Part shown: one piece after another, positions 528 to 51,443 of the stretch
Layout: every line of letters starts with the position of its first letter
How positions within the stretch are numbered: the stretch's first letter is position 1
Assembly: GCA_026982335.1 (NCBI GenBank)
Contig: JALSHH010000014.1
Coordinates: forward strand, 1 to 64,000
Length of the DNA: 64,000 nt
Source of the DNA: Phycisphaerales bacterium
GTDB lineage: Bacteria > Planctomycetota > Phycisphaerae > Phycisphaerales > UBA1924
Direction of reading: 5' to 3'
Position numbers and translations under genes: made by a program
The notes under the pieces: model-generated
What the model was told of the DNA's origin: nothing
What the model saw: the letters and a program-made list of their open reading frames with translations, nothing else
Database searches by the model: none

Positions 528-2159
528 ATGCTGATCGCCCTTGTACAAGTTGATCCTTCCCCCCCGACTGGCTCGGGTTTCACCGATACGGACTGGCTTG
601 TCCTCATCGCCTACTTTCTCACCCTCGCCATCACCGGGTACCTCTTGAGCCGAAAGACCAACCAGACCACCGAGGATTACTTCCTAGGAAGCCGACAGAT
701 GCCGCCTTGGGCCGTTGCGATCTCCATCGTCGCAACCTCCCTCTCAGCAGTCACTTTTATCAGCGTCCCCGAGAGCGCCTACCTTGGCGACCTAACCTAC
801 CTCGCTACCAACATTGGGATGATCCTCGCCGCGATCATCATTGCCTTTGTCTTTCTCCCGGCCTTCTATCGGTCACACAGCGCGTCAATCTATGAACTCC
901 TTGAAACTCGATTTGGAGCACCATCGCGCAAGGCTGCTTCGACCACTTTTATGATCGGGCGTGTCCTCGCTTCGGGTGCACGAATCTACGCTGGCGCGAT
1001 CCCGGCGTCGATCCTGCTCTTCGGACTCGACAAAGGCACCGATCCAGAAAACCTTATCATCGCCATCGCCATCCTCACGACCGTCGGTATCGGCTACACA
1101 CTCGCAGGAGGGATCAGCTCGGTCATCTGGTCCGATGTCATCCAGTTCGGCATCCTCATCGGAGCTGCGCTTGTCGCGATCCTCCTCATCACCGGCTCAT
1201 TCACTGTCCCGATTTCACAAATCATCACCGAACTCCAAACCGGGGGCAGCGAGGGCAGCTCCAAACTCACCCTCTTCGATCTCTCGCTCGATCCACGCCA
1301 GAGCTTCTCCCTCCCGGCGTGCATCATCGGGTTCACGCTCCTGGGCGTCGGTTCCTATGGCACCGATCAAGACCTCGCCCAACGAATGCTCACTTGTCAA
1401 TCCGCCAAAGCCGGTGCCCGCTCGATCATCACCGGAATCTTGTTGGCCATCCCCACCGTTTCAATCTTCCTGATCGTCGGGCTGTTCCTTTGGATCGTTT
1501 ATCAACGCCCGGAACTCACCACCCTCACCGGCGAGTCACCCACCGGAGATTCGGTCAAGGTGTTCCTTCACTACATCATGACCCAGATTCCGCCCGGCGT
1601 GCGCGGGTTGATGATGGCCGGGCTCTTCGCAGCCGGGTTGTCGAGTCTCAACAGCGCGATCAATGCGATGGGGGCCGCCTTCATCGCCGATCTCTACCGC
1701 CCAATGGTCACGGCAAAGAACCCCAACATCCCCGAACGCCACTTCGTATTCGTCGGCAGACTCGCCGTCGTCGGATGGGGCATCATTCTCGGCCTCTTCG
1801 CGATCGTCTGCATCTTCTGGAAGAACAGCAACAACGAAACACTCATCAACTTCGCCCTCGGCGTCATGGGTATCGCTTACGCCGGATTGATCGGTGTCTT
1901 CTTCACCGCCCTCTTCACCAAACGAGGCTCGACCCGATCGGTGATCGCTGCATTGGTTGTTGGGTTTGTGTGGATGATTGCAACGCAGAGATTTCTCTAC
2001 GATGCAATCCCTGCACTACACACGCCTCGCATCGAATATTTTTATGACATCCACTTCACCTGGAAACTCACCATCGGCGTCATCTTCACCACCATCATCT
2101 GCATGCTCGGGAATCGTCCGAATCAGGACACCGACCGTGCGGCCCCGCAGGCTGCATGA
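528..2159 (+). CDS. Sodium:solute symporter (SSS family)
   Basis: A polytopic inner-membrane protein of 543 residues with about 12-13 hydrophobic segments. The cytoplasmic stretch after the first helix (LSRKTNQTTEDYFLGSRQM, about residues 36-54) is the classic SSS signature followed by a P-P-W-A-V helix. Family members import sugars, amino acids, sialic acid or vitamins with sodium; the sequence does not settle the substrate. Nearby glycosidases and a ROK kinase favour a sugar (inference). An upstream in-frame ATG at 444 exists, but it abuts the tRNA and would add a polar 28-residue lead, so the ATG at 528 is preferred. The 3' end overlaps the converging ROK gene by 37 bp. Confidence 0.85.
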   Translation: MLIALVQVDPSPPTGSGFTDTDWLVLIAYFLTLAITGYLLSRKTNQTTEDYFLGSRQMPPWAVAISIVATSLSAVTFISVPESAYLGDLTYLATNIGMILAAIIIAFVFLPAFYRSHSASIYELLETRFGAPSRKAASTTFMIGRVLASGARIYAGAIPASILLFGLDKGTDPENLIIAIAILTTVGIGYTLAGGISSVIWSDVIQFGILIGAALVAILLITGSFTVPISQIITELQTGGSEGSSKLTLFDLSLDPRQSFSLPACIIGFTLLGVGSYGTDQDLAQRMLTCQSAKAGARSIITGILLAIPTVSIFLIVGLFLWIVYQRPELTTLTGESPTGDSVKVFLHYIMTQIPPGVRGLMMAGLFAAGLSSLNSAINAMGAAFIADLYRPMVTAKNPNIPERHFVFVGRLAVVGWGIILGLFAIVCIFWKNSNNETLINFALGVMGIAYAGLIGVFFTALFTKRGSTRSVIAALVVGFVWMIATQRFLYDAIPALHTPRIEYFYDIHFTWKLTIGVIFTTIICMLGNRPNQDTDRAAPQAA

Positions 2160-2983
2160 TAGGGTGAGTCACCGAACATCAATCGCCAATCAGGATTCGC
2201 CAAGCTCGTCAAGCCGTCGTTGACCGCTGTTTCGATCTTGTTTTGATGGGTCAAGAGCGCGATCCCCACGCCGCCCATGAGCACAATCTGGTCGGGCACA
2301 TAGATCGCATGGACGATACGAATCATGCGCACAATCGCATTCATAAAAGGCTCATCCATCCCCAGCGTCTCAATCACCCCAAGCAGTTTCATCGACTCAA
2401 CACCCGGAAACCGCTGCTCGATCGTCCGTGCTCCGATGTAGGACTCAAGCGTGTTCCTTGCACCATCTGGCGCAAGCCGGTCATCCTCGCCGAGCTGCCC
2501 TATGTCGATCATGCCCAGATGACCAATGCCTCGATTCCCGATCCCAACCACTTCACCATCATCAAAGACCGCAAATCCAACGCCAGTACCGATGGCGATG
2601 ATCGCGGTTCGCCCACAACACTTGTGCCCACAAATAAAGTCCACCCCCGCAGCCTGTACATCGCTGAGCACAGCATAGATTGTGGGCCCCCCCCCCAATA
2701 CCTGTTCAAGGATCGCATCGAATCGCCAACCATCAAGACAAGGCAGGTTCACCGCACGCTCGATTGAGCACCCATCATCTGATCTCTTACCAGGCAGGCA
2801 GAGCCCGATGGGCGTGCTCGGCTCAACCTTCGGCAACTGCCCAATCGCCTCGCGGATCGCACCGATCAACACTTCGCGTGATGGGTTGGCATACGCACTA
2901 CTTCGCGCAGTAAGACACGAATGAACATCGAGAAAACAGACCTTGACGCTTGTGCCTCCGATGTCGATGCCCAGCGTCGCCAT
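2123..2983 (-). CDS. ROK-family sugar kinase-like protein
   Basis: A cytoplasmic protein of 286 residues of the ROK (repressor/ORF/kinase) family. The N-terminal phosphate-binding motif DIGGTS is at residues 7-12, a likely catalytic Asp lies in LSDVQAAG (about 108), a second glycine motif GTGVG is at 132-136, and the GIGH histidine is at about 155. The cysteine cluster that binds zinc in typical glucokinases and ROK repressors is absent, and there is no DNA-binding domain, so a kinase-like enzyme fits better than a repressor. The start lies 1 nt after the stop of the GHL10 gene, so the two are probably cotranscribed and coupled. A run of ten G (2687-2696 as C) lies inside the gene at codons 96-99. 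Sugar specificity is unknown. Confidence 0.8.
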   Translation of the reverse strand: MATLGIDIGGTSVKVCFLDVHSCLTARSSAYANPSREVLIGAIREAIGQLPKVEPSTPIGLCLPGKRSDDGCSIERAVNLPCLDGWRFDAILEQVLGGGPTIYAVLSDVQAAGVDFICGHKCCGRTAIIAIGTGVGFAVFDDGEVVGIGNRGIGHLGMIDIGQLGEDDRLAPDGARNTLESYIGARTIEQRFPGVESMKLLGVIETLGMDEPFMNAIVRMIRIVHAIYVPDQIVLMGGVGIALLTHQNKIETAVNDGLTSLANPDWRLMFGDSPYHAACGAARSVS

Positions 2984-2984
2984 C

Positions 2985-4271
2985 TCATCCGCCGATCCGG
3001 TTCATCTGGGCGAACTGGTCAAGCCTCTCAATAAACTTAGTCATCGCTTCGCGCTGCATTGCCCGCAGGCGAATTGCTTCGGGCGTTTTGTCTTGGTCTG
3101 GATTCGCAGATTCAAACATGGACGAATAAGCAAAGAGGACGAATCGGCGTGGATGTCCGAGCGTTGCCTGCGAAAGGGTCTGTCCAGCGGAATCATGCTT
3201 GTAAACTCCAATCCCTGCGAGCACGCGCTTGTGATCGACCGCTGCATACCACGCTTTAAGATCGTCCTCGAACTGGATATCCTTATCGGTATAAATCATC
3301 GGCATGATTTCATCGACCATCCCCTCGTTAACCCATCGTTGGGCATCTTGAAGGTATTGGTCACGCGCCAGATCCGGGCGTCGCCAGACGGCAGCTGAGT
3401 ACCGAATCTGAGGATATCCGTCGAGCGCTTCGCGTCCGATCCGGTCGACCAGGGTCGTGATCCGATCACGGATCCACGCGCGATACTTTGTCCGGTTGAG
3501 ATGCCCCACGGTCGCTCGATCCCCGACCATCCGAGCGTAGAGTGACAAGCTCTTGGCATCGCCGGGGTAGAGTTTCTCTTTGCCGAGTTCATCGGTGAGG
3601 AATCGGATGTAGTCGAGGTGGACCCCGTCGATGTCGTAGCGGGTGACGATATCACGGACGACATTGACAATGTGGTCCTGCACCTCATCGAGCACTGGAT
3701 TAACCACAACATACCCCGTGCCCAAAGGCTGGACAGTACCTGTCTCATCAGTGAGTCGCCATTCTGGACGCCGGTGGAAAAGATGAAACTCATCAATCGG
3801 TGGGCTTATGCCTCGCCAAAGTGGCATAACATTGATCCATGCGTGCAATCGTATGCCTTGGGCATGGGCCTGTTCAATCGCCAATTCCAATGGATCAAAC
3901 CCGGGATCAGGCAATCGTATTCGAGCCTGATCATTCTCATTTTTTTGTCCGCGCAGACGGGTCAGTTCTTCGCCCCAAGGCTCAATCTCAGACTGGTAAT
4001 AGGCATCGGCCTGTCCCCGAACTTGCCAGTAAAGATCGGTGATACCCAGTGAGGCCGCCTTGGAGACGATTTCGCGAATGTCATCGGGGGTTTGATAATC
4101 CCATCGTGTTACCCAAAGCCCGAAGACACTCTCGGTCAAGGCTGCTTCCTCGATACGATCGGCCCGTCGTTCATTGCGCTCGATCACACATCCCGATCCG
4201 AGAAACACAAACGCCACAGCAATGACCAAGATCATGCGCACAAGTAAGGACACACCCACAGATATCTGCAT
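2985..4271 (-). CDS. GHL10 glycoside hydrolase-like lipoprotein
   Basis: A probable lipoprotein of 428 residues: a hydrophobic signal (about 10-25) ends in LGSGC with Cys28, a slightly atypical lipobox. The body begins with GLWVTRWDYQTPDDI and carries ITDLYWQVRGQADAYY, HAWINVMPLW, DGVHLDYIRF and MPMIYTD. These are features of the glycosyl-hydrolase-like 10 family (PF02638, YngK type), a TIM barrel thought to act on cell-wall or other glycans. The ATG at 4271 has GGAGG six bases upstream; an in-frame TTG two codons earlier is less likely. It is cotranscribed with the downstream ROK gene. The exact substrate is unknown. Confidence 0.8.
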   Translation of the reverse strand: MQISVGVSLLVRMILVIAVAFVFLGSGCVIERNERRADRIEEAALTESVFGLWVTRWDYQTPDDIREIVSKAASLGITDLYWQVRGQADAYYQSEIEPWGEELTRLRGQKNENDQARIRLPDPGFDPLELAIEQAHAQGIRLHAWINVMPLWRGISPPIDEFHLFHRRPEWRLTDETGTVQPLGTGYVVVNPVLDEVQDHIVNVVRDIVTRYDIDGVHLDYIRFLTDELGKEKLYPGDAKSLSLYARMVGDRATVGHLNRTKYRAWIRDRITTLVDRIGREALDGYPQIRYSAAVWRRPDLARDQYLQDAQRWVNEGMVDEIMPMIYTDKDIQFEDDLKAWYAAVDHKRVLAGIGVYKHDSAGQTLSQATLGHPRRFVLFAYSSMFESANPDQDKTPEAIRLRAMQREAMTKFIERLDQFAQMNRIGG

Positions 4272-10335: not shown

Positions 10336-11310
10336 ATGAAACGGTATCACGATCGTAGGCCTCATGCAGGGTTCACCCTGATCGAACTTCTCGTGGTGAT
10401 TGCGATCATCGCGCTACTCATTGGGATTCTGCTCCCTGCTTTGAGCCAAGCACGAGGATCGGCGAAAAAACTCAAATGCCTGACTCAAGTGCGCGCGATG
10501 GGGGTAGCGTTCACCTATTACGCCGACGATAATCGCGATTGGTACCCCGTACTTCCTGCATCACAACCTAATCCCCAATACCTTGACAACCAATATACCT
10601 CGGGTGGCGTTGCGGGTTTGTTTTCAACTTTTCAAATTGGTGATGGTGAAGGCACACTCACCCCGCCGAATGTCAGCGGCGATATTGGATTTGTTGGCAC
10701 CCCCGCAGGCGGTGCAGGCCGATACATCAATGGGAGCGATACGCCTTTGATGCGCGGGTATCTCGAAGCATTGGAGATTTTGGTTTGTCCCAGCGACAAG
10801 CTGGACTACTACTGGGAACGATTCCCAACTCCAACAAACAGACTGATTGCTGATGCAAAAACCGACAAAGTTCCCGAACCTCCAATCACTGAGCGTGATG
10901 TGATCCACTACAACATTAGTTATCTCTATATTGCAGGCCTCAAACAGGTTGATCCTTCGATCCAGTTTTCACCGCCATTGTGGGGAGATGAAACCAATAC
11001 TGGGGATGTCAGTCTCAATGCTTGGTATGGATGGGATTGGCAAACCAATGGTCCGGGCGGCGGAAATGAGCCAGACCCTGTGCGTGAGTATGGATTCAAC
11101 CCAAAGACGGGATACGCCAAGGATGACAACCACGGCGATGAAGGAGGCAACTTTGTCCGTGCCGATGGAAGTGCAACATTTATTACAGAGAACCCACAGC
11201 GTACATTCTTTGTCAGCCGAGAGACACTTCCCGATGGCGAGCACTTGGACTCGAGAAGTATCAATCTGATCAACCCGAGACGAAGTGAAAAAGTCCAAAC
11301 GATCGACTAA
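10336..11310 (+). CDS. Type II secretion/pilin-like protein (prepilin N-methylation signal, H-X-DG type)
   Basis: 324 residues. The N-terminus has a basic leader then G12-FTLIELLVVIAIIALLIG, the prepilin peptidase site and hydrophobic helix. It continues with LLPALSQARGSAKKLKC and ends in a globular domain with a histidine 10 residues before DG (HGDEGGNFVRADG), like the planctomycete DUF1559 / H-X9-DG group. These proteins are numerous in planctomycetes; their role (pseudopili or surface glycan handling) is not established. It is transcribed away from the GH13 lipoprotein gene and is followed by the ABC importer. Confidence 0.85.
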   Translation: MKRYHDRRPHAGFTLIELLVVIAIIALLIGILLPALSQARGSAKKLKCLTQVRAMGVAFTYYADDNRDWYPVLPASQPNPQYLDNQYTSGGVAGLFSTFQIGDGEGTLTPPNVSGDIGFVGTPAGGAGRYINGSDTPLMRGYLEALEILVCPSDKLDYYWERFPTPTNRLIADAKTDKVPEPPITERDVIHYNISYLYIAGLKQVDPSIQFSPPLWGDETNTGDVSLNAWYGWDWQTNGPGGGNEPDPVREYGFNPKTGYAKDDNHGDEGGNFVRADGSATFITENPQRTFFVSRETLPDGEHLDSRSINLINPRRSEKVQTID

Positions 11311-45462: not shown

Positions 45463-46170
45463 CTATACATCCATATTGGGGAAAAAGAGTGACCAGAATA
45501 TTTCGGTGATTGCTTCGATCGAGACTCTTGCCCAGTCGAAGATGATGAGCCCACCGAAGATGAAGAAGATAATCAGCACGCCGAGCCCGACCCATCGTCC
45601 GTTCTCCGAGAGCATCACCCGTCGATAGCTGGGCATCACATCCATCAGAATCCGCCCGCCATCGAGCGGGGGCACAGGCAAGAGGTTGAACAGCATCAAC
45701 ACGATGTTGAGCATCGCGCCCAGATGGAGAAAAGTCTTCATATTGGTCGCGAGCGGATCGGCGATCGTCACCGATGAGATCAACTGCCCCTCACACAAGG
45801 GCACCCAGAACATCAGCCCAATCAACGCAATCGTCGCCAGCGCAAGGTTCATCAAAGGCCCAGCAAGCGAAACAATCGCGTCGGCATATCGCCCGCGGAG
45901 TTTGCCCGGATTGACGGGCATCATGCCCCAGGCGATCCCGATGAACACGAACATCAACAGCGAATACGGGCCCATGTGAACCATCGGGTTCCAGGTCATG
46001 TGCCCAGCGAGCCTTGGCGTATCGTCGCCGAGTTTGATCGCGGTCCATCCGTGTGCAAGTTCATGGAGGCAGATGGAGAAGACCACCCAGACCGTCCATG
46101 AAACAACCCACACCTGGCCGTTGATGTCGGGATTGTTGAGCAAGCTCGTAATCCACCATCCACCACCCAT
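45463..46170 (-). CDS. Site-2 protease family membrane metalloprotease (M50)
   Basis: 235 residues with about 6 hydrophobic segments. The zinc motif HELAH is at 36-40 and the second motif LLPVPPLDGG in a later helix supplies the third ligand Asp. It is the compact form, without PDZ domains, common in many bacteria and of unknown substrate; it could release membrane-anchored regulators. AGGAG precedes the ATG. It is 40 bp downstream of rplT on the same strand. Confidence 0.88.
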   Translation of the reverse strand: MGGGWWITSLLNNPDINGQVWVVSWTVWVVFSICLHELAHGWTAIKLGDDTPRLAGHMTWNPMVHMGPYSLLMFVFIGIAWGMMPVNPGKLRGRYADAIVSLAGPLMNLALATIALIGLMFWVPLCEGQLISSVTIADPLATNMKTFLHLGAMLNIVLMLFNLLPVPPLDGGRILMDVMPSYRRVMLSENGRWVGLGVLIIFFIFGGLIIFDWARVSIEAITEIFWSLFFPNMDV

Positions 46171-46209
46171 GTGTGGGCTCCTTGTACATGTTGAGTTATT
46201 CGCTCAGAT

Positions 46210-46584
46210 TTAGGCTTTGGCGGGAACTGCCGAAGTCGCAGCGGTTGCTTGCTCGACGAGTTTGTCAAAAAGCTTTGGATCCTCGATGGCAATCTGCGAG
46301 ATCATCTTGCGGTTGAGGTTGTTGCCGCTGAGCTTGAGCCCGTTGATGAACAACGAGTAGCGTGTCCCACGCATCTTGCAGGCAGCGGTGATCCGGGTGA
46401 TCCAGAGCTTGCGCATCTCGCGCTTGAGTGCCCGACGGTCACGGAATGCGTAGCACCCAGCGCGGCGGACTGCGATCTTGGCCTGATATTTATGACGGCT
46501 CTTGGAGCCGAAATAACCTCTGGCCTGACGGAGAATCTTTTTACGGGCTTTGGTGCGTGCAGCACCTTTACGGACGCGTGGCAT
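46210..46584 (-). CDS. rplT: 50S ribosomal protein L20
   Basis: 124 residues; starts MPRVRKGAARTKARKKIL and contains ARGYFGSKSRHKYQ and RRALKREMRKLWI, all diagnostic of L20, with a short A/T-rich tail. It binds 23S rRNA early in 50S assembly. It lies 131 bp downstream of rpmI in the normal gene order. Confidence 0.97.
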   Translation of the reverse strand: MPRVRKGAARTKARKKILRQARGYFGSKSRHKYQAKIAVRRAGCYAFRDRRALKREMRKLWITRITAACKMRGTRYSLFINGLKLSGNNLNRKMISQIAIEDPKLFDKLVEQATAATSAVPAKA

Positions 46585-46714
46585 GGTTCATGCTCCAAGT
46601 TTGTCTGACGGAGATCGGATATCTTTTATCAAAAGTCCGATTCTTGATCCCGGCAAACGGGGATGGTTGACCCGAATCGACAACTCGTCGATTCGATAAG
46701 TAAACAAATTTGAT

Positions 46715-47017
46715 TTAGCTCTCGGCTGCAGCAGTGGCCTTGGCCGCAGCACGCATCTCGCGCTTCTGCTCGGGCGATGGGTTGCGCCGCATCGAGGTGC
46801 GAGGCTGATTGCGCCCACGGAGCCGACGGAAGAGCAGCTTTTCGAAGCGTTTGGCTTCGGATGCGACCACATGTCGATCCTTGCGGAGCTGACGCAGCCG
46901 TTTAGCGCTCTTGCGCGATGAGAGATGCTTGTGGTAAGCAGCCCGATGGCGGACTTTGCCGGTCTTGGAGACGCGGACACGCTTGGACAAACCTTTATGA
47001 CTCTTATTCTTTGGCAT
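46715..47017 (-). CDS. rpmI: 50S ribosomal protein L35, extended
   Basis: 100 residues, compared with the usual 64-66. The first 65 are a clear L35 (MPKNKSHKGLSKRVRVSKTG, HLSSRKSAKRLRQLRK). The extra C-terminal 35 residues are basic and then alanine-rich. infC, which precedes rpmI in most bacteria, is not upstream; an unrelated sigma-factor partner gene is there instead. Confidence 0.93.
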   Translation of the reverse strand: MPKNKSHKGLSKRVRVSKTGKVRHRAAYHKHLSSRKSAKRLRQLRKDRHVVASEAKRFEKLLFRRLRGRNQPRTSMRRNPSPEQKREMRAAAKATAAAES

Positions 47018-47174: not shown

Positions 47175-48410
47175 TTATGGCCCAACAAAGGCGTCGGTCG
47201 GACCATCAGGGAGCTCAGAGCCCGTCATGATGCCCAGCTTGGACCGAACCTGATGAATCACCTGCTCAATCGGACGGGGAAGCCAGATATTGTCATTGCT
47301 CTCAAACACCGGAGATTGGGCCCACCTTGAGCTGCCATCGAGCATCAGCATGTGCTGCCCCTTGCCCTGATGATTGGGCGAGTTCTCCTCTGGAATAATG
47401 GGCTGGCGGTTGGCCACCCGCAGAACCACCGGCGAGCGATCCGCAAGAAGGACAATCCCCATAGGCTGAGCGATCGCACTGGCCCGCATCCCACCAGGAG
47501 GCATGATCCGGTACGAATACGAAACCTCCGCAAGCGAGTTCCAATCCCATGCCCCGGGCTCCATCTCGCCGGTTGCTGCGTTGGGATTCGACGGACAGGC
47601 CAAATCATCCAAGTCCGCATTATCCGTTCGGACGAGGGTGAAAAGATTCGACGAGTTCGAGCGATCAGGTGTGGACCCGACATCCATCCAGGTCGATCCA
47701 AATCCCGCCGTCGCCATGGGGAGCATGTCCCGATTCGATCCTGCGTAGAGCCCGAAAGCATTGGCAACCGCGTGCATATTGTCAAAACACAAACTTTTTT
47801 GAGCTTTCGATCGTACCCCGGACATGATTGGCATTGTCACCGACGCCACGATCAAAAGGATCGCTGCGATCGAGATCAGGTCTGACCATCGCATCGAGAA
47901 CGCCCCTCGCCCGGAACTCGCTGCCATCGCCATTGCAGCTTCTTCTTGGTCGATATGGACTTGGATGGTCGCCAAGGTCTTCTCCACCAGTCCAGGATTC
48001 GCATCATGCACAGAAGAGGTGATCGCCTCGCCGATCTGATCACACTTGATCGCGCGGGATTCGAACTCTGGCTGGACTTGGTTGGTGTCGTACCCGTTGT
48101 CGATGTATTGATCGAGCGCCTGCTGGTCGGCTGACGAGAGCTGAGGCTGGGTATCGGGTGCCGATTCGAGCCGGGCAGCGAGGAGTTGAATCAGATCAAG
48201 TCGCGTCGGCTTGTGAAGTTCAGACGCAACGGGCGAATCGAGGAGATTCAAGAGATTGAGTATCGCATGGTCTCGGTCTGACTCGGCGATGAACGATTCG
48301 GGATCTGACCCGAAGATACGATCGATGGTCTCCCGATCTGCTTGGGAAAGCTCAAAGTCCTGTTGGTTGGCACTGTTGCTACTTGAAGATTGATCGTCAC
48401 GAATAGGCAT
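47175..48410 (-). CDS. Membrane protein with anti-sigma-like N-terminus and pseudopilin-like ectodomain
   Basis: 411 residues. The N-terminal 185 are polar and acidic without a signal, as in a cytoplasmic anti-sigma or sensor part, but without a zinc HxxxCxxC motif. One membrane helix (about 187-206) leads into MPIMSGVRSKAQKSLC and FGLYAGSNRDMLP, closely paralleling the segment after the pilin helix of the prepilin at 10.3-11.3 kb (LPALSQARGSAKKLKC, FTYYADDNRDWYP). The C-terminal domain has a His 10 residues before DG (HQGKGQHMLMLDG). It lies 24 bp downstream of an ECF sigma gene, so it is probably its regulator. Confidence 0.6.
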   Translation of the reverse strand: MPIRDDQSSSSNSANQQDFELSQADRETIDRIFGSDPESFIAESDRDHAILNLLNLLDSPVASELHKPTRLDLIQLLAARLESAPDTQPQLSSADQQALDQYIDNGYDTNQVQPEFESRAIKCDQIGEAITSSVHDANPGLVEKTLATIQVHIDQEEAAMAMAASSGRGAFSMRWSDLISIAAILLIVASVTMPIMSGVRSKAQKSLCFDNMHAVANAFGLYAGSNRDMLPMATAGFGSTWMDVGSTPDRSNSSNLFTLVRTDNADLDDLACPSNPNAATGEMEPGAWDWNSLAEVSYSYRIMPPGGMRASAIAQPMGIVLLADRSPVVLRVANRQPIIPEENSPNHQGKGQHMLMLDGSSRWAQSPVFESNDNIWLPRPIEQVIHQVRSKLGIMTGSELPDGPTDAFVGP

Positions 48411-48434
48411 TGATCGTCCTCTGAAAAGCTTGGG

Positions 48435-49079
48435 CTACGCCGACTTGTCATGATCCTTCGAGACCACCTGCCAGCTCCGGGCAAAGGCTGCCACCGCCGA
48501 GTGCATGCGAGACTTCACGGTTCCCAACGGGATGCCGAGGTCTTCGGCAATTTGTGCATAACTCATGCGTTGGAAGTAAGCCAAGAGAAGCACCTCACGA
48601 AGGGCCGGGCCGAGCTGGTCAAGCGCCCGCTGCACTTGTTCATCTCGCTGGGCAAGATCCAACGCCTCATCTGGAGCGGGAATATCCACCCCCAAAAGAT
48701 CAATAAACGAAGCGCCGGGTTCTGACTTGCGGATCGGGGCCGAGAGTTCGACCGTTTTCCGTCTGTTCTTCTTACGAAGCATGTCCCGTGCTTTGTTCGC
48801 AGCAATTGTAAAAAGCCAGGGCCTAAATCGCCTTGAAATATCAAATGTGGCAGCCGAGATATGAATCTGAAGAAAAGTCTCTTGGAAGATGTCTTCGGCA
48901 GCTGCCCGATCCCCCACCATGCGCGTCAAAAACCGAAGCAGGTCATCATGATGCCGCTCGATCAACTCCCGATAAGCATCGGGATCACCGTCGCGGAAGG
49001 CCTCGAAAATCTGTTCATCGGTTTGAGATTGCCAATTGCCCACACATCCCTCTCGGTTCTGGCTCCTACGCCCATTCAC
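48435..49079 (-). CDS. ECF-type RNA polymerase sigma factor (module 1)
   Basis: 214 residues. Region 2: DEQIFEAFRDGDPDAYRELI and DRAAAEDIFQETFLQIH; region 4: LDQLGPALREVLLLAYFQ and MSYAQIAEDLGIPLGTVKSR. It is cotranscribed with the pseudopilin-like membrane protein, its likely anti-sigma partner. The start is uncertain: GTG at 49079, or an internal GTG at 49043 with GAGAGG upstream. Divergent from a second sigma gene. Confidence 0.88.
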   Translation of the reverse strand: MNGRRSQNREGCVGNWQSQTDEQIFEAFRDGDPDAYRELIERHHDDLLRFLTRMVGDRAAAEDIFQETFLQIHISAATFDISRRFRPWLFTIAANKARDMLRKKNRRKTVELSAPIRKSEPGASFIDLLGVDIPAPDEALDLAQRDEQVQRALDQLGPALREVLLLAYFQRMSYAQIAEDLGIPLGTVKSRMHSAVAAFARSWQVVSKDHDKSA

Positions 49080-49282
49080 TGTCCGTCTGTTTGCTCGATT
49101 GTGTAAAATGACAATGGTTTATCGGCTCATTGCCTCCACTCTACCGATAAGCAATCCAGAAAGCATTTGCCGACCCGAACACAAGCCTCCCAAACGGACT
49201 TGCCGAATATTCTTAGTAGAGTGTAGGTGCTTGATCTCCCCCTGTGGCAATACCGCCCCGGCCCAAGCGTTGAACGAGAAGG

Positions 49283-49927
49283 ATGGTATTGACATTGAGT
49301 ATGCAACCAAGTCGCCCCAGCGCAGAACCCGAGGAGCTGAGCACCATTGTTGCTCTGGCTGCCGATGGCGATGAGTCTGCTTGGGAGCAGCTTGTCGGGC
49401 TCTACGCCCGTCGTGTCTTCGCAATGGCGCGAAGCCGACTCCATGATGAGGACCTTGCTGAGGAGATCACCCAATCCGTGTTTGTTACCATCTCAACCAA
49501 ACTCAACCAATCGGCATACACCGAGCAGGGACGATTCGAGCCTTGGCTCTTCCGGATCACGATGAATCGGGTGCGTGATTATTGCCGAAAGCGATCGCGC
49601 CATGCCAAACCGATGGCTCCCGAATATTTCGCAAGTGTCGAAGGACAACCCAAGCCCGATATCCACACCAAAGACGACCATCAGCACCAGCTCAATACCC
49701 TGCGATTGGCAATGGAGCAGCTCTCTGAGACCGACCGCGAGATGATCACCTTGCGTCATCATGGGCAATTGAGCTTCAAGCAAATCGCCGAGATAACTGG
49801 CGATCCCATCGGCACTCTGCTGGCGAGGCATCATCGAGCACTCAAAAAGCTCCGCATGATCATCGAAGAGCAAGCCAACTGCTCGCACCCCACCTCGCCT
49901 GATTCCAATCTCGGAGAGACCTCATGA
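49283..49927 (+). CDS. ECF-type RNA polymerase sigma factor (module 2)
   Basis: 214 residues. Region 2: ALAADGDESAWEQLVGLYA, DEDLAEEITQSVFVTIS and PWLFRITMNRVRDYCRKR; region 4: QLSETDREMITLRHHGQLS and FKQIAEITGDPIGTLLARHH. Start options are ATG 49283, TTG 49289 (GAGAAGG six bases upstream) or ATG 49301. The stop overlaps the next start (ATGA). Two membrane-anchored proteins follow, forming a sigma/anti-sigma type cassette. Confidence 0.9.
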   Translation: MVLTLSMQPSRPSAEPEELSTIVALAADGDESAWEQLVGLYARRVFAMARSRLHDEDLAEEITQSVFVTISTKLNQSAYTEQGRFEPWLFRITMNRVRDYCRKRSRHAKPMAPEYFASVEGQPKPDIHTKDDHQHQLNTLRLAMEQLSETDREMITLRHHGQLSFKQIAEITGDPIGTLLARHHRALKKLRMIIEEQANCSHPTSPDSNLGETS

Positions 49928-50436
49928 CACACGATCGCACACCCTCGAACCTGAATCTCCATCTCCATGACGATCCTAAGTTGTCGCATACCGAGTCGAT
50001 CCTCGACGAGCTCGCCAAGCAGGATGCCGATGCGATGCCCGATGGGCTTGAATCCCGTGTGCTCGATGCGATCTCCCAAAGCATCGCCCCACCTCCGATG
50101 AGCATTTCGGATATTCATCCACCAAAGCAAGCAGGCCGAGTCTGGTCGATTCGAGTTGCTGCTGCGGGACTCTTGGCCACAGGCACCACACTGCTGATTG
50201 TCACTGCCCAGCCTTGGTCGTCGACATCACCCCACCCCCTCGACCATCGCATGGCCTTGGTTTCCTTCGAGCAGGACATGGACGACTTCTTCGCCCTCGA
50301 ATCACTCGACGATGGTCAGCTTGCCGAAGCGGTCACTGATTGGGAAATCTGGGCTCAATCGGTCGATACTGATCTGGACTCAACACTTACTGGTTTTGAC
50401 TGGTACGAATCCACATCCGATGATGGAGCACTGTGA
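49924..50436 (+). CDS. Putative anti-sigma membrane protein
   Basis: 170 residues. The N-terminal cytoplasmic part (1-75) contains ESILDELAKQDADAMPDGLESRV, like the short sigma-binding lead of zinc-less anti-sigma factors. One membrane helix lies at about 76-96 (VAAAGLLATGTTLLIVTA), followed by an acidic 70-residue outside tail (MDDFFALESLDDGQLAEAV). It overlaps the sigma gene (ATGA) and the next gene (TGATG), so the three are coupled. Confidence 0.65.
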   Translation: MTHDRTPSNLNLHLHDDPKLSHTESILDELAKQDADAMPDGLESRVLDAISQSIAPPPMSISDIHPPKQAGRVWSIRVAAAGLLATGTTLLIVTAQPWSSTSPHPLDHRMALVSFEQDMDDFFALESLDDGQLAEAVTDWEIWAQSVDTDLDSTLTGFDWYESTSDDGAL

Positions 50437-51443
50437 TGAAACCTCAACCGTTCACTCAGCCCTTGAAGACGATTGTCGCCTCAATTTGCGCCATGGTGAT
50501 CATTGGTGCGATGATTGGGCTGACGCTTCCTGTGGATCAGCCTCGATCGCAACCAACCAAAGAGCGTGCTCAAGAAGCCCCCCCCGCATCACATGTTTCC
50601 AGCCAAAGTCCCGACCGGGGTGCCGATCGCCCGCGTGAGCCTAGGAAGAAAATCCTTGATATCCGGATCAATGCCAAAGCACTCCGCGCCCGGCTCAATC
50701 GTTCGATCCTCCGGGCTGAGGAGACACTCAAACTCCACCGAGCAGCGTTGGCCAAACTCGATGAAGGCGCCTCGCCCAGCGAGGTACTCGCAGCAATGAA
50801 GCGCCGGGACCTCACCCACAACCACAAAAGCGAACAACGCCCCGACCAAGAACAACGCCCCGGCCCCGATCGGCTCAGCCCCCAAGAACGCCAGGCAATA
50901 CACCAGTTTCTTCGTGAGAACTTCCCCAAACTTGCCAACGATCTTGAGCAGATGACCCAGTATAACGCACAAAGCGCCGACCAAATGCTTGCAAAAATGG
51001 CGCCGCCAATTCGTGAAATACTGTTCCTGACCGACACCCAACCTGAACTTGCTCAACTCAAAACCAAAGAAATGCGCGCAGGATTGCTGCTGATCGAGGC
51101 ATCGAGCGCCTACCGCGCAACACTGAGTAACCCATCGGCATCTCAATCTGATCAAGCCAACGCGATTGCCAAAGTACGGCGGGCGGCAGCCGACCACTTT
51201 GACACCCAGCTCGAATCCAAGAAACTCGAAATCGCCAGACTCGAAGCCCGGCTCAATGAACTCAAAGCCTCGGTCAATGAAATCGAACAACGCCGAGACA
51301 TCGAAATCGAACAGATGGTCGAATCAGCCAAGCGCAACGCCCGCCGACATCTGGGCAAGCAAGGCAGCAAAGAACGCCAACATACCCGCACCGCATCCCC
51401 TGGAAACAAATCCCCAGAAAACAGATCATCAGGAAACGACTGA
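50436..51443 (+). CDS. Membrane-anchored coiled-coil protein of the sigma module
   Basis: 335 residues. An N-terminal signal anchor (about 10-33, [20 protein letters not shown]) is followed by a P/R-rich linker and long charged helices ([39 protein letters not shown]), i.e. coiled coil at about 85-120 and 245-300. The tail is basic and low-complexity. No family is recognised; the layout (sigma, anti-sigma, extracytoplasmic helical protein) resembles sensor proteins of envelope-stress modules. The ATG shares a base with the previous stop. Its 3' end overlaps the converging tRNA-binding gene by 15 bp. Confidence 0.6.

Follow-up and report, generated by a model that had tools for sequence, protein, structure and literature searches.

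We report that an ECF sigma factor gene and the gene directly downstream of it, in a 64,000-nucleotide stretch of Phycisphaerales DNA (referred to here as the window), most likely encode a sigma factor and a membrane-bound anti-sigma factor that has recruited a pilin as its receptor. We place this full proposal at a probability of roughly 0.8, and sequence comparisons indicate that the reading of the downstream protein as an anti-sigma factor plus a recruited pilin is well supported. The ectodomain of this partner protein is a real homologue of type IV pilins. In addition, and beyond what had been proposed in a sequence-only reading of the same DNA, the partner retains a prepilin N-terminus in exact register, apart from the cleavage glycine, which it has lost. 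The features concerned are listed here.

48435-49079, minus strand: ECF sigma factor (Sigma70_r2 1.2e-18, Sigma70_r4_2 4.4e-16, TIGR02937 2.5e-32)
47175-48410, minus strand: putative anti-sigma factor of 411 aa, anchored in the membrane and bearing a pilin-type ectodomain; 24 nt past the sigma stop codon
48162-48353, minus strand: repeat 1 of the N-terminal helical part, residues 20-83 (modelled as three helices; alignment A1)
47919-48140, minus strand: putative anti-sigma domain, residues 91-164 (A2 profile; matches A4, hhalign E 8.7e-13)
47736-47894, minus strand: membrane helix in pilin register, residues 173-225 (M173 = +1, D177 = +5, P194 = +22)
47880-47882, minus strand: D177, at the site of pilin Glu5 (acidic in 58 of 69 family members)
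47178-47735, minus strand: pilin-type ectodomain, residues 226-411 (pLDDT mostly >90; hhalign without the membrane helix 3.1e-22 and 5.9e-11)
47334-47372, minus strand: H347-x10-D358-G359, H-X9-DG-like C-terminal motif (column counts over 69 members)
10336-11310, plus strand: true prepilin of the same window, for comparison (N_methyl 8.8e-9, DUF1559 0.0029; GFTLIE cleavage site)

The sigma protein contains regions 2 and 4 only, with PF04542 and PF08281 above cut-off, which agrees with its earlier identification as an ECF factor within the pair at 47175-49079, coordinates that are correct. It is 214 amino acids long when counted from the listed GTG, and the true start may lie slightly downstream. 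In a FastTree tree, 79 sigma factors encoded beside pilin-type partners and 15 encoded beside stand-alone versions of the partner's N-terminal domain form one clade (support 0.91), from which 23 other ECF factors are left out, among them the divergent ECF factor of the same loci. The window sigma is placed within this clade, which holds solely sigma genes adjoining the partner family.

Searched alone, the partner gives no noteworthy Pfam or NCBIfam match, and in particular none to an anti-sigma or pilin model; its resemblance to pilins was therefore noticed by eye alone. The nearest named record is a protein from a Phycisphaerales metagenome-assembled genome (MAG) that is 85% identical. An AlphaFold2 model built with the family alignment (pLDDT 84) shows a single long helix at residues 175-225 across the membrane segment, followed by a sheet domain. 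The layout described in the sequence-only reading, a long cytoplasmic N-terminus and one membrane helix, is therefore retained; however, the cytoplasmic part ends near residue 172 and not at 185, because the pilin register begins at residue 173. Repeat 1 (residues 20-83) seems to be a first copy of the anti-sigma-like domain that has diverged, and it is missing in many homologues; alignment A1 includes both single-repeat and multi-repeat members. Copy number of this domain varies, with apparently three tandem copies in the L047 protein (1457-3034), two in the window protein and one in others. At another locus (L059, 1775-2467, minus strand) the N-terminal domain and helix are kept and the C-terminus is short and not pilin-like.

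Homology to pilins is evident at several levels of comparison. A search of 61 related genomes with the single partner sequence recovered the prepilin at 10336-11310 at an E-value of 3.9e-5 and matched many prepilins over partner residues ~165-240, while BLASTP of the partner against prepilin 10336-11310 gave 7e-4. Profile A3, consisting of the transmembrane segment and ectodomain of 39 sequences, was aligned by hhalign with 11 prepilins of the same genome (E 2.7e-14) and with four family f5 prepilins from loci L056-L058 (E 3.1e-25 over 200 columns). Removal of the membrane helix left E-values of 5.9e-11 and 3.1e-22, respectively, and the corresponding reversed-target controls gave 0.71 and 0.15, so that the profile comparison with the pilin group suggested as a check in the earlier reading did find similarity. 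That reading had drawn a parallel specifically with prepilin 10336-11310. The parallel goes beyond chance, but likeness to the pilins of its own genome is strong across the first ~55 residues only, covering the helix and the start of the ectodomain, and is weaker at the DG motif. It is with a separate prepilin group, in family f5 of the same taxonomic order, that similarity extends across the whole ectodomain. These closest prepilins (L056 1735-3782, L057 2018-3256 and L058 2022-3020) possess a conserved S-L-S-G stretch followed by an additional membrane helix at the C-terminus, and at L056 two prepilin copies lie in tandem.

Structural comparison is in agreement. With VIA-align, the top three of the solved structures listed for the partner model were the type IV pilins TcpA, ETEC type IVb pilin and FimA, at Z-scores of 4.7, 4.4 and 3.4, which are modest, and the sequence evidence carries more weight. 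The alignments span partner residues 173-406 or 173-368, with residue 173 equivalent to pilin residue 1 or 2. A PDB sequence search with A3 listed pilins and GspG alone, as weak matches in an identical register. The window partner has no DUF1559 (PF07596) match, and DUF1559 matches occur in 8/46 homologues at E up to 0.1, the best being 5e-5. Likewise, the window partner has no match to H-X9-DG (TIGR04294, cut-off 19) and has x10 spacing; two relatives, L164 and L140, score 18.1 and 15.4 bits, both below that cut-off. The terminal H-X10-DG recognized by eye is present as H347-x10-D358-G359, and among 69 members the H is found in 66, the D in 57 and the G in 56, with x10 spacing in 50. Two cysteines, C208 at the helix end and C272 in the ectodomain, are both present in 63 of the 69. 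Since single-sequence similarity to the window prepilin is modest, one could suppose that the likeness to pilins arises only from a hydrophobic helix and from short motifs shared by chance. We give this practically no chance: the hhalign signal survives removal of the helix and is gone in reversed controls, which rules out chance likeness of a hydrophobic helix, the f5 match is ectodomain-wide, and the model lies nearest to pilins.

The register of the partner relative to mature pilins is fixed, with residue 173 at +1, 177 at +5 and 194 at +22, and the helix, the structural alignments and the PDB sequence matches concur. The long N-terminal helix and pilin ectodomain fold of type IV prepilins are both present. 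Of the 69 family members, 58 have Asp or Glu at +5, 61 have L, V or I at +6, 32 have Phe at +1 and 63 retain P22. Prepilin peptidase requires Gly at -1; this glycine occurs in 10 members and is missing in 59, including the window protein, where the residue is S172. As the earlier reading held, the prepilin cleavage signal is absent: in place of the class III signal (Gly at -1, F-x-x-x-E), the window partner has S172, M173 and D177. Most members also have basic residues at +2 or +4, and the junction in family f15 reads T-F-S-L-R/K-E-L, compared to G-F-T-L-I-E-L in prepilins. Given that the register is kept from +1 through P22 and Gly -1 is lost, the whole mature pilin was recruited and not the ectodomain alone, with loss of the cleavage site. 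Several members of family f9 have lost both the +5 acidic residue and P22; therefore, neither is strictly needed.

The N-terminal part of the partner was examined with profile A2 (residues 85-176), searched alone. The putative anti-sigma domain has conserved L141 and T145, which lie within an L-V-x-R-T-L-A-x-I helix. A2 aligns to A4, the corresponding domain of families f9, f15 and f25, at the hhalign E-value listed above, and members of A4 give E-values of 1.8e-12 to 8.7e-4 with the NF052375 'anti-sigma factor' model; at about 15-51 bits, where the cut-off is 100, these NF052375 scores are below curated cut-offs. The NF052375 match of homologues covers the N-terminal domain and runs into the membrane helix. 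One single chain, L140, combines matches to NF052375 (N-terminus), GspG (helix) and H-X9-DG (C-terminus). A phylum search with A4 reached two further proteins, L163 and L164. L163 carries a canonical zinc anti-sigma motif, H-x3-C-x2-C (H-L-A-T-C-P-S-C), and matches NF052375 (2.5e-13), zf-HC2 (0.00099) and ChrR (0.0029), together with T2SSG (0.013) and DUF1559 (0.059) on the pilin side of the same chain. L164 matches RskA_N (0.012), NF052375 (3.2e-9) and H-X9-DG (0.0017). The gene for L163 (1435-2325, plus strand), a phylum-level relative with a degenerate pilin-like ectodomain, adjoins a sigma gene of the same clade. In other A4 matches (L165, L167, L168, L170 and L171) the domain is joined to unrelated C-terminal parts. 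Anti-sigma factors usually carry one domain with varied C-terminal parts. The H-x3-C-x2-C motif was not found in the window partner, and the earlier statement that there is no zinc anti-sigma motif is thus correct for the window protein but not for the group as a whole, given its presence in L163.

The N-terminal model has three helices per repeat. For the 92-residue domain model (pLDDT 87), no anti-sigma chain was found among 56 re-aligned PDB chains, the best Z of 3.8 being to unrelated proteins, and the case for an anti-sigma domain therefore rests on sequence and synteny. No useful match came from searching PDB sequences with the N-terminal profile; its match to a lysozyme chain over 21 residues looks spurious. 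From the homologues and the gene pairing there is a strong inference that the N-terminal domain is an anti-sigma domain, and sigma binding is predicted. The core of the sequence-only reading, an anti-sigma factor with an ectodomain derived from DUF1559/H-X9-DG pilins, can be regarded as well supported, through adjacency to one ECF clade, the anti-sigma models matched by homologues, L163 and the pilin homology.

Genomes were evenly drawn at one per species, and the counts represent a sample and not a full census; most of the genomes are MAGs, and partner starts in homologues were picked by rule. A partner match is present in 60/61 related genomes searched, and A2 alone was found in 74/198 genomes of the class. 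At 39 A2 loci taken outside the closest families, a sigma gene of the same group lies immediately upstream in 38. With nearer loci included, the sigma is adjacent in 92 of 93 testable loci, L141 being the exception in both counts. The two genes are close or overlapping, with an ATGA overlap in many. In family f11 (L123-L150), the partner is only ~93-146 aa, an N-terminal domain that has no membrane helix or ectodomain, beside the same sigma group. The 15 sigmas of these stand-alone-domain loci form one subclade (support 0.86). Given that f11 sigmas pair with the stand-alone domain, the sigma is tied to the N-terminal domain, from which the pilin part can be detached. The simplest reading is that the ectodomain was apparently lost once, in f11, because the relatives from outside the class, L163 and L164, have pilin-type ectodomains.

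Beyond the sigma and partner genes there is no conserved third gene, and contexts are lineage-specific; neither such a gene nor a known regulon connects the pair with pili. The relevant neighbours in the window are as follows.

49119-49150, no strand: inverted repeat TTATCGG-N18-CCGATAA, possible operator, between two divergent sigma operons
49283-49927, plus strand: divergent second ECF sigma
50433-51443, plus strand: coiled-coil-rich protein
45463-46170, minus strand: M50 site-2 protease-like gene

Both arms of the inverted repeat are retained in four close relatives. The sequence TTATCGG-N18-CCGATAA occurs a single time in the genome and so yields no target list, and upstream alignments revealed no clear -35/-10 pair common across the genus. 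Much of the genus retains the second ECF gene in divergent orientation to the first, and beside it, within 49283-51443 on the plus strand, is a short protein with one membrane segment and a weak NF052375 anti-sigma match (7.7e-6). On the other side, the pair is followed by rpmI, rplT and the M50 gene (45463-47017, minus strand). Families f1 and f2 both retain rpmI/rplT as neighbours, and the M50 gene is seen in f1 only, near the pair in 26 loci. A role for the M50 gene as a dedicated release protease was set aside, its synteny being confined to f1 and running via rpmI-rplT. Searches of the host genome (2.56 Mb) gave 37 N_methyl prepilin matches, several platforms of the T2SSF type and just one match to prepilin peptidase, so pilin subunits are expected in the same membrane. 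Pilus machinery does not separate genomes with the ectodomain from those without it, as T2SSF is present in 28/28 tested.

By analogy with known anti-sigma factors, the cytoplasmic helical domain or domains of the partner (residues 1-172) would hold the sigma at the membrane. From pilin +1 to its C-terminus, the protein is a type IV pilin belonging with the DUF1559/H-X9-DG group but minus the cleavage glycine, an origin shown by sequence, register and model. The uncleaved pilin part would stay fixed in the inner membrane, oriented as a prepilin, and could act as a receptor: when something in the periplasm or in the membrane binds to it or is lost from it, the protein would be changed or exposed. 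The sigma would then be freed by conformational change or regulated proteolysis, for which the M50 gene at 45463-46170 is a possible protease. What is sensed is a more tentative matter. The likeliest candidate, at odds somewhat worse than even, is the cell's own pilin or pseudopilin pool or assembly platform, since the protein has retained the pilin helix together with its acidic +5 residue. A more elaborate version, which we consider speculative, is that the uncleavable pilin exchanges inner-membrane contacts with pilin or pseudopilin subunits via its helix and acidic +5 residue, such that pilus extension, retraction or pool depletion sets ECF activity across Planctomycetota.

A fixed pilin that keeps the +5 acid appears well suited to contact with pilins, and an external ligand is almost as likely. 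According to that alternative, which the sequence-only reading had favored and which we consider possible, the ectodomain of the anti-sigma factor binds a soluble or surface ligand unrelated to pilus assembly. Mean column identity is 37% in the ectodomain against 22% in the anti-sigma domain, and D324, P327, H347, G351, Q352, D373 and N374 in the C-terminal loops are fixed, some of them common to the f5 prepilins, as would be expected of a binding site. However, the same fixed residues could be structural core, and conservation of the ectodomain fits pilin sensing and an external ligand alike; we know of no ligand for the DUF1559/H-X9-DG pilin group. Membrane anti-sigma factors are commonly released by proteolysis, and the pilin part could therefore be a mere membrane anchor and protease gate that has no specific ligand and that, as in RseA, envelope stress or unfolding exposes to site-1 and site-2 proteases. 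The M50 site-2 protease-like gene close to the pair in the f1 loci is in keeping with such a gate, but this gene lies behind rpmI-rplT, is not found near the pair outside f1 and looks like ordinary synteny, and a gate would not require such strong conservation of the ectodomain, making it a rather unlikely explanation.

Two other readings concern the partner's relation to the sigma and to prepilin peptidase. That the window protein itself matches no anti-sigma model would suit an uncleaved pilin-like protein under sigma control, or a positive cofactor, in place of an anti-sigma factor. We judge this improbable, since the N-terminal domain stays with the sigma in the 15 stand-alone cases where the ectodomain is absent, and since homologues match anti-sigma models, one of them with a zinc motif. 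Less probable still is that prepilin peptidase cuts the junction and so releases the anti-sigma domain and sigma from the membrane. The genome does have a prepilin peptidase, and the minority of members with Gly at -1 and the many with Phe at +1 would fit such a cut; nevertheless, the glycine is missing in the great majority, with Ser in the window protein, and basic residues occupy +2 or +4 in most. An anti-sigma factor bearing a fixed, uncleaved pilin as its receptor is the reading that we prefer.

ECF sigma factors are very numerous in planctomycetes, which also have many DUF1559 pilins, and for most of these proteins no signal or ligand is known. The partner family joins the two in one conserved protein, so that both signal questions become testable, and the defined sigma factor offers a reporter for whatever acts on the pilin domain. 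The gene pair is widespread in planctomycetes, and the proposal suggests that these cells read the state of the pilus, or something that pilins bind, in order to control genes. Pairs of ECF and anti-sigma factors are familiar; the use of a pilin as their sensor is new as far as the open-access literature shows, in which we found no paper joining anti-sigma factors with pilin domains, and a listing in the main ECF classification papers is possible. Recruitment of pilins as receptors is likewise a route of sensor evolution that we did not find described.

Compared to the DUF1559 (PF07596)/H-X9-DG (TIGR04294) planctomycete prepilins, the partner shares the helix register, the helix-end C, Y-A-x-x-N-R-D-x-x-P, C-P-S, H-x(9-10)-DG and the pilin fold, but differs in lacking the cleavage glycine and in having a long cytoplasmic N-terminus, basic +2/+4 residues and an adjacent sigma gene. 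RsgI factors act on SigI-type sigmas and have polysaccharide-sensing ectodomains and a different N-terminal domain. The RsgI anti-sigma factors of Clostridium thermocellum differ from one another in their extracellular sensing part (PMC12203970), and the partner resembles them as an anti-sigma factor with a differing extracellular sensor. Class I membrane anti-sigma factors include RseA, RskA and RsiW, and their ASD-I is described in PMC7406223. Like these, the partner is encoded beside an ECF gene and has a helical domain in the cytoplasm at its N-terminus, a single membrane helix and a C-terminal sensor of the variable part. Unlike them, it carries an entire pilin, prepilin helix included, as its ectodomain, its N-terminal domain is often in tandem and its sigma binding is predicted. 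The class I fold has four helices with helix 4 apart, and the partner model shows three helices per repeat; likeness to NF052375 lies in the homologues and not in the window partner itself. Finally, PilS of Pseudomonas reads PilA by direct membrane contact (Kilmury and Burrows 2016, as cited in PMC6058289). The PilS-PilR system is similar in having a membrane regulator able to read a pilin via membrane contacts. Whereas PilS is a six-helix histidine kinase, the proposed reader here is a pilin fused to an anti-sigma domain, which suggests a one-protein counterpart of PilS-type pilin sensing.
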